Positions 5,020-12,373 of a stretch of 56,906 nt of DNA are shown one piece after another. Numbering within the stretch: position 1 is the first letter of the stretch; each line of letters begins with the position of its first letter. The notes beneath the pieces were generated by a model. The model was not told the DNA's origin. It made no database searches and saw nothing but the letters and a program-made list of their open reading frames with translations. Origin of the DNA: Bdellovibrio sp. Lineage in GTDB: Bacteria; Myxococcota; SpSt-1050. The translations under genes and the position numbers were made by a program. Where the stretch lies: contig DYEF01000047.1 of the NCBI GenBank assembly GCA_020725805.1, positions 1-56,906 of the forward strand, read 5' to 3'.

Positions 5020-5856
5020 ATGAGAATAATGCCGATAGTTTTATTGCTTGTCCTTTTTGGTTTTAATCTTTATGCCGGTCAGAATGATCTTAATCTTTCC
5101 GGCCTTTCGTATTATGATTATTCTAAAAGGGCCTATGTCGGAGACGAAGAGGGGTTTTTCAGGCTCGCAAACGAACTCGGTGTTGCGCTTGCCCCTAAAC
5201 TTCTTTCTCCGGGTTCCTCGCTCGGGCAGGCAGGGTTTGAACTCGGGTTTGAGACATCTCTTACCCCTATCAATTCGAATGCAGATTACTGGAAAAAATC
5301 AGTTGAGGGCGGCAGACCTTCGGATATGCTGACTGTTGGTTCCTTCAGACTCAGAAAGGGCTTTCCACAGAGCTTTGAGGTCGGTACAACGGTATCCTAT
5401 ATATTCCTGAGCCAGATGTTTCTGGGAGGAGTGGAGGCAAAGTGGTCGCTTAATGAAGGGTTCTATTATCTGCCTGATCTGGGAGTAAGGCTTGCCGTCA
5501 ACAGGCTCTTCAATGCAAAGGATATGGACCTTACGAACGGCAGTCTCGATACCATTCTCTCCAAGACATTTGGTCTCGGAGGATTTATGCAGCTGACCCC
5601 GTATTTTGCATACAGTTATATGACGGTTATAACCAGCAGGAGAACGATCAATGCTACACCGTGGGATTCAAGGGATAACGGAGGTTCTTCTCTCTACCCT
5701 GTAGACCAGTTTACTTTTGATTCGAAATGGCAGTGGAATCACCGTTTCTTCTTCGGCCTGAAGTTTAAGGGTCATATAGTTACAGCATATTATGAGTTTG
5801 CGCTAGTGCCTGATGCAGTAAATTCACATTCCTTCAAGCTCGCTGCAGATTTTTAG
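5020..5856 (+). CDS. Outer-membrane beta-barrel protein
   Basis: 278 aa with a Sec signal peptide (residues 1-19, cleaved after NLYA). The mature chain is rich in alternating aromatic/polar strands (for example FELGFETSLTPI, FEVGTTVSYIF, LTPYFAYSYMT, HRFFFGLKFKG, IVTAYYEFALVP) and ends in SFKLAADF. A C-terminal Phe preceded by alternating hydrophobics is the classic beta-signal for BAM-dependent insertion. I do not recognise the family; a predicted 10-12 strand barrel of unknown cargo is the most that can be said. An AAGGAG site precedes ATG 5020. Its last four bases overlap the convergent double radical SAM gene. Confidence 0.7.
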   Translation: MRIMPIVLLLVLFGFNLYAGQNDLNLSGLSYYDYSKRAYVGDEEGFFRLANELGVALAPKLLSPGSSLGQAGFELGFETSLTPINSNADYWKKSVEGGRPSDMLTVGSFRLRKGFPQSFEVGTTVSYIFLSQMFLGGVEAKWSLNEGFYYLPDLGVRLAVNRLFNAKDMDLTNGSLDTILSKTFGLGGFMQLTPYFAYSYMTVITSRRTINATPWDSRDNGGSSLYPVDQFTFDSKWQWNHRFFFGLKFKGHIVTAYYEFALVPDAVNSHSFKLAADF

Positions 5857-7799
5857 TCCCAGAGTACCTTTACCGGTCTCAGTTCTTTAATACCATACAG
5901 GTTGATATAGTTTCTGAACAATCCCTCACAGACGGAATCGAAGACACACTTTTTGCAGACAGGGGATTTCGTCTTTAAAAAGTTCGACTTTCTCTCTCTC
6001 CAGCTGAATCTGTCTACGAAATCTGGGTCTGTTCTGCTTGCAAAGGTTGTAACAAAAGTGTCGAGGTCTCTGAGTTCACCGATATATTTTTTTAATAGCT
6101 CTCTGTTCCTGATGAGAATATCCGGCAGCAGGCAAAAGGGTATATCGCCTATTGCTATGCTGATTTTATCGTTTTTCTCACAGTAATTTATCAGTCTTCG
6201 GATGCTCTCTTTTGTATCGCTGAGTCTCGGAATTATCTTTCTGTCGTACTGGGATTTGTTCTCCGGTCTGATAAAGTTGAATCTGAAGTCCCGGATTCCG
6301 AGGTCTGAAAAAAAGATTATAAATCGGTCGAGTTCGGTGTGATTGAGGCTGTGAATACAGGTATTAAGTGAAATTCCGTGTTCGATTCTTCTTTTGCTGT
6401 CGATGTCAATAAGATTCTTTATGCCCTGTATCTTCTCCTTAAAGGCATTCTTCCTTCCGTTAAGGTAGTTTTCTGTCTCTTCCCTGTGAGAGTGTATGGA
6501 AATCATAAAACGCGTTGCGCCGGCATTTACAATCTTTTTGGCAAAAGAGAGGTCCGATAATCTTCTTCCGTTTGTACACAGGGCTATTCTTGTAAATCCG
6601 ATGCCTTTTGCATATTCGATTATTCTGATTACATCGGGATGAATGGTGATTTCTCCGCCTAAGAAACCGAGGGACCTGAATCCGTCATTGTATGCCTTTT
6701 GTATCTCCTCTCTGATTTTCTCGAATTCCGTAAACCTGTTTTCTTCCTTGGATACAAGACCGTTTGCACAGAATATACAGGAGTTGTTGCAGAGTTTTCC
6801 GATATTTACCTCGTAGTTTTTCTCTGTATTTAATGGTACCGCCTGAAATCTCTTCTTGCTTCTGCTCTCTTCTCTGCCGATCGGGGTTAGTGGTATGTCA
6901 TTTGTTCTGATATATTCTTTATAAATCCCTTTGCACCGGTTCTTTGCCGTACACAGGGAACAGATATCTCTGACATAATCCATATTCTTGTAGTCAACCC
7001 TGAAGAATCTCTTTTCGAATGCCTCTGACATATACAGGATATTCTCCGAATACATATCCCTGTTGTATTTCTCATAATCCGGTGAGAGGCATACGGGGAG
7101 TCCGTCGTGGAATATCAGTGTGTCGGGGTTGACCTTCTCTGCCTCCCTTATTCCCTCTGCGATTACGGAGGCGCTTTTTGAAAGCGGTATAACGACATCA
7201 TCGAAATTGGCAAGTGCATTTCCTTTGGGCTCGGTTACAGATAGTTTTATTATTATTCTGCCGTTACCGATAAGGGCCAGTTTACAGGCAGTGTCAACTA
7301 CTTCGTCAATATTCTGTTTTATAACCGGAATGTTGACTGTGAGCATCAGTGAGGATATATTCAGCATGTTTGCAACAGCCTGTAATGACTGATTAAGTCC
7401 CGGCAGGCCTGTTATTTTTCTGTATGTTTTCTGATTCAGGCTGACGAGTGACATATATACATATCTCAGACCGAGACTGTAGAGTCTTCTGAGCCTCTCT
7501 CTGTCAGCGAGCAGCCTGCCGTTTGTAATCAGTCCGGAATACATCTTCTTCGAGAAGGTATATCTGATTATTTCTTCAAGGTCTTTTATCAGGAGCGGTT
7601 CGCCTCCGGAGAAGAGAAGAATCTTTGTCCCGAGTCTTCTGGCAGAGTCGACTTTCTTTATTATCTCATCTCTTGAGAGAGACTTTTCTTTTCTGAATCC
7701 TGCGCTGTGGCAGAAAATGCAGTCATTGTTACATTCATACCCCCATTTTATTATTGCCTTTTTAAGTCTGTCGAATGCGTACTGATTCTTTTTTACCAC
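5853..7799 (-). CDS. Double-headed radical SAM maturase in HxsC position
   Basis: 648 aa made of two radical SAM halves. Half 1 has C23-x3-C27-x2-C30 (ECNNDCIFC), the GGEP loop (SGGEPLL, 65-69), LPVCLSPD with C237 and an auxiliary motif C280-x2-C283-x5-C289. Half 2 repeats the order: C337-x3-C341-x2-C344 (LCNNSCIFC), LGGEITIHP, IPFCLLPD with C556 and C615-x2-C618-x5-C624. The spacing is nearly identical, so this is an internal duplication with both 4Fe-4S sites intact. The GTG start at 7797-7799 overlaps the end of the His-Xaa-Ser precursor gene by 7 bp, implying translational coupling. In described Hxs loci a second maturase, HxsC, fills this place but is, as I recall, a single-domain protein of about half this length. 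Role inferred: post-translational modification of the adjacent repeat peptide. The chemistry is unknown. Confidence 0.8.
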   Translation of the reverse strand: MVKKNQYAFDRLKKAIIKWGYECNNDCIFCHSAGFRKEKSLSRDEIIKKVDSARRLGTKILLFSGGEPLLIKDLEEIIRYTFSKKMYSGLITNGRLLADRERLRRLYSLGLRYVYMSLVSLNQKTYRKITGLPGLNQSLQAVANMLNISSLMLTVNIPVIKQNIDEVVDTACKLALIGNGRIIIKLSVTEPKGNALANFDDVVIPLSKSASVIAEGIREAEKVNPDTLIFHDGLPVCLSPDYEKYNRDMYSENILYMSEAFEKRFFRVDYKNMDYVRDICSLCTAKNRCKGIYKEYIRTNDIPLTPIGREESRSKKRFQAVPLNTEKNYEVNIGKLCNNSCIFCANGLVSKEENRFTEFEKIREEIQKAYNDGFRSLGFLGGEITIHPDVIRIIEYAKGIGFTRIALCTNGRRLSDLSFAKKIVNAGATRFMISIHSHREETENYLNGRKNAFKEKIQGIKNLIDIDSKRRIEHGISLNTCIHSLNHTELDRFIIFFSDLGIRDFRFNFIRPENKSQYDRKIIPRLSDTKESIRRLINYCEKNDKISIAIGDIPFCLLPDILIRNRELLKKYIGELRDLDTFVTTFASRTDPDFVDRFSWRERKSNFLKTKSPVCKKCVFDSVCEGLFRNYINLYGIKELRPVKVLWD

Positions 7800-8173
7800 G
7801 AGCCGTGAGAACCGTGAGAACCGTGTGAGCCGTGTGAACCGTGTGAACCGTGTGAGGCGTGGGAGCCGTGAGAGGCGTGTGAACCGTGTGAGGCGTGAGA
7901 GCCGTGAGAGCCGTGTGAACCGTGTGAACCGTGTGAGGCGTGAGAGCAGTGGGCTACTTCATTTCCGGTTGCCGAAGAGGCAACAAGTGTGGCGGCATCA
8001 AAGGAATCGTGGGTACCCGGGGTAATATCTTTCTGGTGAGCAGCATCAACGGCGCCGCCGAGGAGCATTAGTGAAGTGGAGATAGCGAGCGATTTTCCTC
8101 TCGTGATCTTACCTTCCTCGCTGTTTAAGAAGAGCTTTGCATTTCTCTTTAACTTTGATTTTTTGTTTTTCAT
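7793..8173 (-). CDS. hxsA: His-Xaa-Ser repeat peptide precursor (HxsA-like)
   Basis: 126 aa. Residues 1-74 form a leader: a basic N-terminus (KNKKSKLKRNAKLFLNSEEG), a hydrophobic segment SLAISTSLMLLGGAV (about 29-43), and a linker. The rest is 17 uninterrupted His-Xaa-Ser triplets ending in a single C-terminal Trp. Xaa is Gly in twelve triplets, Ala in four, and Cys in the first. This architecture, next to two radical SAM genes and an HxsD-like gene, matches the His-Xaa-Ser system, which is predicted to yield a radical-SAM-modified peptide of unknown structure. Here the repeat core is strictly HGS/HAS and unusually long. The hydrophobic segment may be a signal or membrane anchor, giving an exported or surface-displayed product. 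AGAGGA precedes ATG 8173. Metal binding by the many His side chains is also possible. Confidence 0.8.
   Translation of the reverse strand: MKNKKSKLKRNAKLFLNSEEGKITRGKSLAISTSLMLLGGAVDAAHQKDITPGTHDSFDAATLVASSATGNEVAHCSHASHGSHGSHGSHGSHASHGSHASHGSHASHGSHGSHGSHGSHGSHGSW
7799..7951 (-). repeat. 17 x 9-bp tandem repeat encoding His-Xaa-Ser
   Basis: Seventeen 9-bp units lie in frame within the precursor gene. Units vary at synonymous positions (for example GGT/GGC, TCA/TCT) and at the middle codon (Gly/Ala/Cys), so the array is not a fresh slippage expansion and the peptide pattern looks selected. Confidence 0.9.
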
Positions 8174-8188: not shown

Positions 8189-9667
8189 CTACTCTCTTGA
8201 CCTAAATATAGACCATTTTTTGAAAATTTGCAACATTTCATTTGATATATTATGCATTTTGTTGAAAAGATACCCTAAAATCGCCTTGTTTATGCGGCAT
8301 TTGCTGCTGTGTTCCATAGAACCGAATATGTCGCCCTGCTCCATATAGTTGATAATCGGACAGATTCCGCAATACGGCTTGAAGGCACACCCCTGACAGT
8401 ACGGATATGCGTCCAGAAGCGATGCAACAAGTATCGAGCGGGTTATAGGAGAACCTACAAGGTCGACATACAGGTCTTTGCCGGCAGAACCCAGCAGAAA
8501 AAGGTCTTCACCCATTTCGTGCATCATCCTTGCCTCATCGCAGGTGAAAATCTTTCCGTCGTAGTTATATGCCATCTGGCCGATTCCTGCCCCGCAGGGG
8601 GAACGGAGGTCCAGAAAGTTCGGGTCTCTGTCTGTAATCATTTTGATAATGAAGAGTGCCGCGGTCCTCTCCTGAATCTCCACGCCTTTAAGGTTGAGTT
8701 CTATGACATAGTCGAGTATCTCAAAGTAAAACTTTAGAAATTCATCGGTTGTGTATCCTATCTTTGACCACGTCTTGGAGGCAAAGCCGAGCGGATTGAG
8801 TGGTCTTACATGGATTACCTTTATACCGTGCTTTACGTATTCGTCTACTATCTCTTTTGCATGGCCGAGGCTCTGCCGTGTGGTAGTCATAAGTGCATCG
8901 ACGTGATATATGTTCGTGTCAAAGCCGCGTTTTTTGTATTCGTTGTTGATTCTCGTCATCCACTTTATGGTTTCCCTGTATGAGCTGTTTTTTGAAAAGG
9001 GTCTGTTTGCGTCGTGAATCTTCTGCGGGCCGTCGAGCGAGGTGCAGAACAGAACGCTTCTGTCGAGAAGATATTTCATCTTCTTTTCGTCGATCTTGCT
9101 GAGATTGGTTACTACCGAGAAATAGAGTTCCTTCTGAATCTCCTTATTCTTTTCGAGGGCGTATTCGATAATGAATCTGACTATTTCAAAGTTGATGAGA
9201 GGTTCGCCGCCCTGAAATTCGATTGTTATCTGGGGTGATGTGGTATCGAATATGGTATCTACTACTTTCTTTGCAGTATCTTCAGTCATATCAAACCCTG
9301 TCCTGCTCTCGTCCCTTCGGGATGCGTGACAGTAAAGACACTGCTGGTTGCACCTGAGAGTCGGTATTACGATATGCAGATTGGGTCCGGCATTCAGAAA
9401 CTTCATCTTCCTTGCAAGCCATATGGCCATCTGGTCTTTATCTATTCTGCCCGGGAAGAGATTCTTTTCGGTTAGTATTTTGCCAAGAGATGAATCCTCT
9501 TTAATTTCGCCTTTGAGCAGTTTATAAAATTCTCCCGGTGAAACCGTATGAAAATCTCCGGCATCGTTTGTAAGTACTATTATCTCTCCGGTATCAAAGA
9601 AGTACGGAAGACCTTCCCTGAATTTATATAACTTCAACTGCGAATTGTTTGGAATCCGGTATCTCAT
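8189..9667 (-). CDS. hxsB: Radical SAM/SPASM maturase (HxsB-like)
   Basis: 492 aa. An N-terminal region of about 95 residues without Cys (possible precursor-recognition region; YRIPNNSQLKLYKF start) is followed by the radical SAM core with C106-x3-C110-x2-C113 (LRCNQQCLYC) and GGEPLINFE. The C-terminus carries a SPASM domain for auxiliary clusters: SPCGAGIGQMAYNYDGKIFTCDEAR, then CQGCAFKPYCGIC and a last Cys in SSKCRIN. This layout is that of peptide-modifying SPASM enzymes such as anaerobic sulfatase maturases and RiPP maturases. Its place between hxsD-like and the repeat precursor supports HxsB. It overlaps the hxsD-like gene by ATGA (translational coupling) and lies 15 bp before the precursor gene. 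It is intact and expected to be cytosolic. Confidence 0.8.
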   Translation of the reverse strand: MRYRIPNNSQLKLYKFREGLPYFFDTGEIIVLTNDAGDFHTVSPGEFYKLLKGEIKEDSSLGKILTEKNLFPGRIDKDQMAIWLARKMKFLNAGPNLHIVIPTLRCNQQCLYCHASRRDESRTGFDMTEDTAKKVVDTIFDTTSPQITIEFQGGEPLINFEIVRFIIEYALEKNKEIQKELYFSVVTNLSKIDEKKMKYLLDRSVLFCTSLDGPQKIHDANRPFSKNSSYRETIKWMTRINNEYKKRGFDTNIYHVDALMTTTRQSLGHAKEIVDEYVKHGIKVIHVRPLNPLGFASKTWSKIGYTTDEFLKFYFEILDYVIELNLKGVEIQERTAALFIIKMITDRDPNFLDLRSPCGAGIGQMAYNYDGKIFTCDEARMMHEMGEDLFLLGSAGKDLYVDLVGSPITRSILVASLLDAYPYCQGCAFKPYCGICPIINYMEQGDIFGSMEHSSKCRINKAILGYLFNKMHNISNEMLQIFKKWSIFRSRE

Positions 9668-9867
9668 CTTCTCTTTTCCTCTATTGTGTAGAGCAGAACC
9701 ATACTCTCGAAGTGGTGAAGTTCTGCCTCGTCTTTTATCTCCGGCAGTTTAACGATATAATCTTTGCCGGATTTCTCTATTTTGCAAGACTGGTTTTCTG
9801 TAAATTCCGAATACGCCTTTTTTATTGCGTCTTCTGTATAAAGTTTTCTGTCGAACCTTACAAGCAT
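9664..9867 (-). CDS. hxsD: HxsD-like small protein of the Hxs system
   Basis: 67 aa, soluble and mixed charge, with a compact alpha/beta pattern (VRFDRKLYTEDAIKKAYSEF, then CKIEKSGKDYIVKLPEI, then a helix ending IEEKRR). HxsD proteins are small proteins with a similar opening and are only known by association with HxsA, B and C; a role in leader or precursor recognition has been guessed but is not shown. Identification rests on position (immediately upstream of, and overlapping, the SPASM radical SAM gene), size and the general pattern, not on a decisive motif. AGGTGG precedes ATG 9867. Confidence 0.6.
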   Translation of the reverse strand: MLVRFDRKLYTEDAIKKAYSEFTENQSCKIEKSGKDYIVKLPEIKDEAELHHFESMVLLYTIEEKRR

Positions 9868-9879
9868 ATTCCCACCTGC

Positions 9880-10041
9880 CTAAAATATTGTGTAAATAAA
9901 AGGTGCGGCGGCTGTCTGCCCCAGAATGATGATTATTGCCGTAAAGAGCAGAATTACAATGATAGGGATAAGCCACCACTTCTTTCTTTCTCTGAGAAAT
10001 CTGAAGAGTTCGGATATTGTCGATATGTATCTGCCTTTCAT
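9880..10041 (-). CDS. DUF5989-like single-pass membrane peptide
   Basis: 53 aa. The protein has an amphipathic basic start (MKGRYISTISELFRFLRERK), then KWW, one long membrane helix (about residues 22-42) and a conserved-looking end APFIYTIF. The order ELxxFLRxRKKWWLxPI, hydrophobic helix, APFIYTxF is that of the DUF5989 family, which is of unknown function and often found beside biosynthetic genes. It is the first gene of the Hxs operon, 12 bp upstream of the hxsD-like gene. I see no clear Shine-Dalgarno. A TATAAT on the minus strand at 10056-10061 would put the transcript start only a few bases before the ATG. Role inferred: a membrane accessory to the peptide system or a bystander; undetermined. 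Confidence 0.75.
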   Translation of the reverse strand: MKGRYISTISELFRFLRERKKWWLIPIIVILLFTAIIIILGQTAAAPFIYTIF

Positions 10042-10780: not shown

Positions 10781-12373
10781 ATGCCGGTCAGCTCGGATAT
10801 TCTTATTATAGGGGGCGGAGTTGCGGGACTTACCCTTGCCCTCAGGCTGAATCAGAAGTTTGATATATCGGTTGTAGTTAAATCCTCACTGTATGAGTCA
10901 GCCTCTTCCGTTGCACAGGGAGGGATTGCAGCGGTCTTCGACAGGGAGGATTCTTTCGAAGACCACATTCAGGATACACTCAGGACCGGAGAGGGACTCT
11001 CTGACAAGGAGGTAGTGAGACTCTGTATAAAGACGGGTCCCGAACTGATAAAATGGCTGGAAACGCTAGGGGCTGAATTTTCGAGGAAGGAAAATTCAAA
11101 CGAACTCGACCTCGGACTTGAGGGAGGGCATTCCCACAGAAGAATTGTGCATGCAAAGGATATCTCGGGCAGAGAGGTGATAAGAGTACTCTCAAGAGAG
11201 GTGTTGAAACGGGAGAATATACGGGTCTTCGAAAATCATTTTGCAGTTGACCTGATATCCACGAAAAGGCTCGGACTTGCGGGCAGAAACAGGGTTCTCG
11301 GTGCGTATATCCTCAACTTAAAGACAGGAGTAATCGAGACATTTTTTGCATCAAGTGTGATACTCGCGACAGGCGGAGCTGGCAAGACATATCTCTATAC
11401 CTCCAATCCGGATATCTCGACCGGAGACGGACTTGCAATGGGATTCAGAGCGGGTGCGGTTGTGGAAAATCTGGAGTTTGTCCAGTTTCATCCGACCTGT
11501 CTGTATCATCCTGATGCAAAGTCATTTCTTATATCCGAGGCATTGAGGGGAGAGGGCGGAAGGCTGCTCAGACCTGACGGAACGCCTTTTATGCATATTT
11601 ACCATCCGAGGAAGGAGCTTGCGCCGAGAGATATTGTCGCCCGTTCGATAGATTTCGAGATGAAGAAGAACGGTTTTGATTATGTCCTGCTGGATATAAC
11701 GCATCTGGGAGGAGAGTTCCTGAAAAAGAGATTCCCGTCGATTTATCAGAGGTGCATGGAATACGGATTTGACCTTGCTGTAAAACCTATACCTGTCGTG
11801 CCGGCAGCCCATTATTTCTGCGGGGGAATAAAGACTGATTTATTCGGTCGTACAAATGTCGGGTCACTATTTGCAATAGGAGAAGTAGCCTCTACAGGAC
11901 TGCACGGGGCCAACAGACTGGCGTCGAATTCACTTCTTGAGGGGCTGGTTTTCGGTAATCAGGTGGCGCTCTTTCTGAACAGGGAGAGAAAATCGGAGTT
12001 GCCTGAGAAGAAGAAGGTTCCTGACTGGGATGCGGGGGATGCCGTGGATTCCGATGAGGCAGTCGTTGTGAGCCAGAACTGGGATGAGATCAGGAGACTT
12101 ATGTGGAATTACGTCGGGATAGTGAGGTCTGATAAGAGACTCAGAAGGGCCATGAGGAGGATAAACCTTCTGCAAAGCGAAATCAATGAGTATTACTGGA
12201 ATTTCAGGGTTACAAAGGACCTTTTAGAGCTTAGAAATATTGCCCTCGTTGCAGAACTCGTAATTAAATCGGCCATTAGTCGCAAGGAAAGCAGGGGATT
12301 GCACTATACTATCGATTATCCGTCGAAGGATAAGAGGTTCGAACGGCCTACAAGAATGATCAGGAAACTTTAA
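10781..12373 (+). CDS. nadB: L-aspartate oxidase
   Basis: 530 aa, the normal length. NadB oxidises L-aspartate to iminoaspartate with FAD, the first step of de novo NAD synthesis. The FAD-binding motif GGGVAG (11-16) follows the N-terminal strand DILII. SSVAQGGIAAV, EGGHSHRRIVHAKDISGREV (active-site loop), ATGGAGK, QFHPTCLY, SEALRGEGGRLL, HYFCGGI and the GLHGANRLASNSLLEGLVFG block are all intact, as in the fumarate reductase/succinate dehydrogenase flavoprotein superfamily. HSHRRIVHAKD and the absence of an FrdB/SdhB partner gene favour NadB over the respiratory subunits. The C-terminal helical domain is present (RLRRAMRRINLLQSEI). nadA and nadC are not in the window. It immediately follows a lipoprotein gene. 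Confidence 0.93.
   Translation: MPVSSDILIIGGGVAGLTLALRLNQKFDISVVVKSSLYESASSVAQGGIAAVFDREDSFEDHIQDTLRTGEGLSDKEVVRLCIKTGPELIKWLETLGAEFSRKENSNELDLGLEGGHSHRRIVHAKDISGREVIRVLSREVLKRENIRVFENHFAVDLISTKRLGLAGRNRVLGAYILNLKTGVIETFFASSVILATGGAGKTYLYTSNPDISTGDGLAMGFRAGAVVENLEFVQFHPTCLYHPDAKSFLISEALRGEGGRLLRPDGTPFMHIYHPRKELAPRDIVARSIDFEMKKNGFDYVLLDITHLGGEFLKKRFPSIYQRCMEYGFDLAVKPIPVVPAAHYFCGGIKTDLFGRTNVGSLFAIGEVASTGLHGANRLASNSLLEGLVFGNQVALFLNRERKSELPEKKKVPDWDAGDAVDSDEAVVVSQNWDEIRRLMWNYVGIVRSDKRLRRAMRRINLLQSEINEYYWNFRVTKDLLELRNIALVAELVIKSAISRKESRGLHYTIDYPSKDKRFERPTRMIRKL

Follow-up and report, generated by a model that had tools for sequence, protein, structure and literature searches.

The stretch of DNA analysed here, referred to as the window, comprises 56,906 nucleotides of contig DYEF01000047.1 from Bdellovibrio sp. 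(GCA_020725805.1). Four of its genes lie on the same strand in the order HxsD-like protein, HxsB, HxsA4 and a radical SAM protein with two heads. The His-Xaa-Ser (Hxs) system, HxsA4 and HxsC4 are already known as NCBIfam families, and HxsB and HxsC are considered putative maturases of His-Xaa-Ser peptides, following Haft and Basu (PMC9062424). The genes are as follows:

9664..9867 (-): HxsD-like protein, 67 aa; NF038315, 32.5 bits, under the cut-off of 41
8189..9667 (-): HxsB radical SAM maturase, 492 aa; TIGR03978, 530.8 bits, cut-off 370
7793..8173 (-): HxsA4 repeat precursor, 126 aa; NF038313, 84.7 bits, cut-off 55
5853..7799 (-): radical SAM protein with two heads, 648 aa, starting with GTG

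The last 4 bases of the HxsD-like gene are also the first 4 of HxsB, and HxsA4 shares its last 7 bases with the two-head gene, which starts there with GTG, so that the genes look translationally coupled. The HxsD-like protein matches both HxsD profiles significantly yet below their cut-offs (19.5 bits to TIGR03976, cut-off 50), and its size and position fit the role of HxsD. The preliminary description had proposed a maturase beside a His-Xaa-Ser repeat precursor; with the adjoining gene matching the HxsA4 family above its cut-off, a maturase role is probable. The repeat array of this precursor consists of one HCS, four HAS and 12 HGS triplets (17 in all), followed by a C-terminal Trp.

A second species of the genus, represented by genome G001 (JAOAFA010000128.1, 'Deltaproteobacteria bacterium isolate SKW273'), has these four genes in an identical order and with conserved flanks; its two-head protein is 645 aa long and 66% identical to the window copy. 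An assembly or annotation artefact joining two genes might be suspected, as G001 is a metagenome assembly and the genome of the window is distributed over 115 contigs; however, the uninterrupted 645-aa frame at 66% identity in the same operon of a second genome refutes this suspicion and leaves it a practically negligible probability.

Several further features of the surroundings were observed. Just upstream of the HxsD-like gene in the window (9880-10041, minus strand), and likewise upstream of it in G001, lies a gene for a 53-aa DUF5989 membrane protein (PF19451, E 1e-20), with which the operon may begin. At the other end, a convergent gene on the plus strand (5020-5856), whose end overlaps that of the two-head gene by 4 bases, encodes a 278-aa protein that is 79% identical in G001 and has no Pfam or NCBIfam match.

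Domain anatomy and conservation of the two heads

The two-head protein can be divided into the following parts, all on the minus strand:

6870..7799 (-): N-head, residues 1-310, HxsC-like radical SAM head of a clade fused to a methyltransferase in relatives
7710..7733 (-): N-head CxxxCxxC (C23/27/30), SAM-binding cluster motif, 13/13 in the N-clade
7077..7097 (-): PVCLSPD of the N-head (C237), which probably supplies the fourth ligand of an auxiliary cluster
6933..6962 (-): N-head CxxCx5C (C280/283/289)
6822..6869 (-): linker, about residues 311-326, the sole poorly conserved stretch between both species
5856..6821 (-): C-head, residues 327-648, HxsC4-like radical SAM head, with mostly single-head relatives in HxsA4 genomes
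6768..6791 (-): C-head CxxxCxxC (C337/341/344), 12/12 in the C-clade
6120..6140 (-): C-head PFCLLPD (C556)
5928..5957 (-): C-head CxxCx5C (C615/618/624)

The Pfam Radical_SAM domain (PF04055) is matched twice in this protein (total E 7e-48), each time with a CxxxCxxC motif inside the domain that is invariant in the respective clade, which places both heads in the radical SAM superfamily. The linker is marked by a drop to 27% identity between the two species over residues 305-326. Every cysteine of the two sets listed in the preliminary description was found at its position, and its expectation that the halves resemble each other outside these motifs holds as well: BLASTP aligns them at 24% identity over about 300 residues (E = 3e-14), with a local alignment score of 165 against 36 +/- 5, and a maximum of 57, for 500 shuffles. 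No match to the SPASM domain (PF13186) was obtained up to E 1; each head instead has the shorter set of PxC and CxxCx5C. CxxxCxxC is the motif that holds the SAM-cleaving cluster in radical SAM enzymes, and the four ligands of one auxiliary cluster could come from PxC together with CxxCx5C. Judged from these motifs, each head would hold a SAM-cleaving 4Fe-4S cluster and one auxiliary cluster, amounting to about four clusters per chain. A search of the PDB by sequence returned only distant general radical SAM enzymes, and a structure model built from two sequences reached a pLDDT of 47.6, too poor for active-site geometry.

With regard to family membership, neither head reaches the cut-off of a named family. 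The scores to HxsC (TIGR03977, cut-off 267.9 bits) are 111 for the whole protein, 55 for the N-head and 68 for the C-head, and those to HxsC4 (NF038332, cut-off 500 bits) are 195.5, 65.6 and 136.5, respectively, compared with 575.6 bits to NF038332 for a single-head HxsC4 adjoining HxsA4 in another genome (G133, L080:10197-11249).

The conservation of the cysteines bears on the possibility that catalysis is confined to one head, the other being a remnant with a structural or regulatory role. Pseudo-radical-SAM domains are known, and the usual partner of the N-head is a methyltransferase, which indicates that the second domain is exchangeable. Nevertheless, neither species and no member of either clade has lost any of the seven cluster-type cysteines of the respective head: C23/27/30, C237 and C280/283/289 are each present in 13 of 13 N-clade sequences and C337/341/344, C556 and C615/618/624 each in 12 of 12 C-clade sequences, and the remaining cysteines of both heads are less conserved than these 14. 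At saturated dS between the window and G001, dN amounts to 0.26 in the N-head and 0.21 in the C-head, and both heads are under purifying selection. A remnant head accordingly has a slim chance of being the correct explanation. The preliminary description would have been undermined by a degenerate half in a close homologue; both heads are intact in G001, the only such homologue.

Ancestry of the two heads

The preliminary description regarded the protein as tandem duplicated. On this reading, one head would have been copied in this lineage and both copies would act alike, perhaps processively along the repeat. An alignment does run through the whole of both halves, with the motifs nearly equally spaced (E 3e-14), but homology of two radical SAM domains is not in itself a demonstration of tandem duplication. 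Each half is in fact closer to proteins of other families (30-38% identity for the N-head, 33-43% for the C-head) than to the other half (24%). In a tree of 41 heads, the N-head falls in a clade of 13 rows with the N-halves of radical SAM-methyltransferase proteins (support 99/99) and the C-head in a clade of 12 rows (100/100), and the two types each occupy one side of a branch in 200 of 200 bootstrap trees; a larger tree of 80 heads agrees on their separation. Constraining all four halves, two from each known copy, to one clade costs 119.65 lnL and is rejected by the AU test under the model used (p 3.3e-45). A common origin of the halves within this lineage thus retains only a very slight probability, and the designation as a tandem duplication does not stand.

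The relatives of each head indicate what happened instead. Among 195 genomes of the phylum searched with one radical SAM-methyltransferase enzyme, the N-head was found in 18, of which 13 gave whole-length matches, one (G041) a C-terminal part, and two (G044 and G030) fragments at contig ends; only the window's genome (G000) and G001 have an intact protein that matches over the N-head alone, with the C-head following it instead. In every other lineage in which the C-terminal half is visible, the N-head enzyme is a radical SAM-methyltransferase fusion. This architecture, in which the N-head precedes a methyltransferase and no second CxxxCxxC is present, characterises 14 genomes (G002 and 13 others of the phylum), 13 of them seen in full and G041 in its C-terminal part only, at a contig end; the methyltransferase halves were recognised as Pfam Methyltransf_11/23 in the five proteins scanned and in the rest by BLASTP to those halves. 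Judged from the tree, the N-head is orthologous to the radical SAM portion of the methyltransferase-fused enzyme, which is found together with HxsA4 throughout the phylum. The relatives of the C-head are mostly single-head HxsC4-like proteins of one other family (f5), at 33-43% identity, and the C-head nests within the C-type heads of that family; it is a paralogous enzyme that is mostly encoded there by a gene of its own.

The separate clades, the AU test and the methyltransferase of the relatives together point to a fusion of two old paralogues, in which the C-head occupies the place of the methyltransferase. Such a fusion may have arisen by replacement in one step or by loss of the methyltransferase followed by fusion, and the C-head may have been gained by transfer from f5. 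No methyltransferase half was detected elsewhere in the window's genome at E 0.01. The two-head protein is known from two genomes of one genus only, at least one of which is a metagenome assembly.

Proteins that combine two radical SAM domains are nevertheless common in HxsA4 clusters. The preliminary description considered radical SAM proteins with two complete halves to be rare, which applies to this particular N/C pair, found in the two genomes only, and not to two-domain architectures in HxsA4-bearing genomes at large. Recurrent proteins of 750-970 aa in such genomes carry a B12-type radical SAM domain followed by an HxsC-like head, at these positions:

L030:3147-5960, L081:1332-4256, L083:2015-4288, L047:5903-8599, L104:9198-11468

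Within 56 kb of G020 (L039-L041, G020:C26:112000-168000), one HxsA4 gene is surrounded by some 13 radical SAM proteins, several of them with a B12-binding domain or two radical SAM domains. Elsewhere in G001 (L104:7421-18923, G001:C93), a divergent radical SAM-methyltransferase fusion lies beside several other radical SAM proteins.

Co-occurring enzymes and HxsA4 precursors across the phylum

Two further single-head radical SAM enzymes, here termed R2 and R3, adjoin the methyltransferase fusion in the f5 genome G005 (L031:10218-11156 and 11181-12116). Counterparts are present in the window's genome, both on contigs other than that of the operon: R2 at L092:8379-9290 (62% identical to that of G005) and R3 at L094:7024-7956 (50% identical). 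Among the 195 genomes searched, R2 was found in 17 and R3 in 16, all within the set of 18 genomes with the N-head, and the absences within this set fall in G044 (70% complete) and G118 (79% complete). HxsA4 over its cut-off (15 of 15), close HxsB (16 genomes) and the C-head (10 of 10) are likewise restricted to this set; the HxsA4 of G002 is present and scores below the cut-off. Gaps in the co-occurrence of N-head, HxsA4, HxsB, R2 and R3 are confined to incomplete or fragmented assemblies. The hypergeometric p-values of these associations range from 1e-12 to 1e-23 over the 195 genomes; they ignore relatedness and thus overstate independence, while the pattern itself spans seven families.

The precursors compared were those of the window (7793-8173) and of L029, L031, L033, L037, L039, L043, L045, L047, L065 and L079-L084. 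The HCS triplet occurs exactly once, at the start of the array, in 15 of 17 HxsA4 precursors, and a C-terminal Trp follows the last triplet in all 17 but one, which is cut by a contig end; the arrays therefore have fixed ends around a variable number of triplets, from 10 to 59. In the f5 family (L031, L033, L037, L039, L043, L065), the leaders contain a twin-arginine-like TRRD or TRRQ before a hydrophobic segment, where the leader of the window has TRGK, and the f5 stretch suggests that export may follow modification in the cytoplasm.

Proposed division of labour and relation to known systems

The preferred reading is that two different radical SAM enzymes of the HxsC/HxsC4 type, both belonging to the HxsA4 system, have been fused into the two-head protein, and that each head probably carries out a different step. 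Since the heads belong to two orthologue groups, both of which are kept separately in the f5 relatives, two different steps are favoured; this split of labour is deduced from ancestry and not from activity. In the proposed mechanism, HxsB, with HxsD, would first engage or modify the HxsA4 peptide, after which the two heads, which presumably act on HxsA4, would modify the HGS and HAS triplets by two different radical steps. The fusion would keep the repeat substrate local, and further steps would fall to R2 and R3, whose genes are on other contigs.

Alternatively, both heads might perform the same reaction on the His-Xaa-Ser triplets in a different register, either processively or with one head serving HGS and the other HAS or HCS. 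The repeat of 17 triplets that mixes HGS with HAS in this species would suit such an arrangement, as would the HxsC-like character of both heads. The distribution of the triplets, however, speaks against a division between HGS and HAS: HAS occurs in genomes without a C-head (L045, L082, L083) and pure HGS arrays occur in genomes with one, so that the C-head does not track with HAS. On balance, a shared reaction is rather unlikely, and two distinct steps performed by two fused enzymes are still preferred.

Several known systems may be compared. The window resembles the HxsA4/HxsC4 variant of the His-Xaa-Ser system (HxsA/B/C/D) in having HxsA4 and HxsB over their cut-offs, an HxsD-like gene and HxsC/HxsC4-like heads, and differs from it in that no single-head HxsC or HxsC4 lies beside HxsA4; the two-head protein takes this place, with both heads under the cut-offs. 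The unnamed HxsA4-linked radical SAM-methyltransferase fusion (for example, L045:7217-9010 and L037:10626-12482) has the same N-head and a similar total length, and in G002 it stands in the same place as the two-head gene, after the HxsD-like gene, HxsB and HxsA4; its second half is Methyltransf_11/23, where the window protein has a second radical SAM head. Another two-head protein, from G005 (L030:10607-12544, 645 aa), joins a C-type head, 42% identical to the C-head of the window, to another HxsC4-like head; because the C-type head stands at the N-terminal end and is followed by a head that is not of the N-type, this fusion is separate from that of the window. FO synthase FbiC, a fusion of CofG and CofH, is a precedent: it makes its one product with two radical SAM domains in a single chain and a separate 5'-deoxyadenosyl radical for each (PMC11917521). 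It belongs to other families and acts on tyrosine and a pyrimidine rather than a repeat peptide, so the likeness is one of principle only. In a literature search that covered few subscription journals, no description was found of the two-head protein, the methyltransferase fusion or R2 and R3 as partners, and the queries on HxsA-D and on double or tandem radical SAM proteins returned nothing on HxsA4 chemistry or a His-Xaa-Ser product.

A broader model can be put forward tentatively, with a probability slightly short of even. HxsA4 maturation would depend on four or more radical SAM enzymes working as an obligatory team, among them HxsB, the N-head enzyme, R2 and R3, to which some families would add B12-dependent and further heads, and the HGS triplets between the fixed HCS start and the C-terminal Trp would carry several radical modifications; in the present genus, a second radical SAM head would have replaced the methyltransferase half and thereby changed the final product. 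Through the fusion, two enzyme families become tied to a single substrate; with R2 and R3, contributed by the phylogenetic profile, the result is a short, testable parts list of one small operon and two genes. The N-head is joined to a methyltransferase in the relatives and to a second radical SAM domain here, and this exchange is a natural experiment on the role of the second half.
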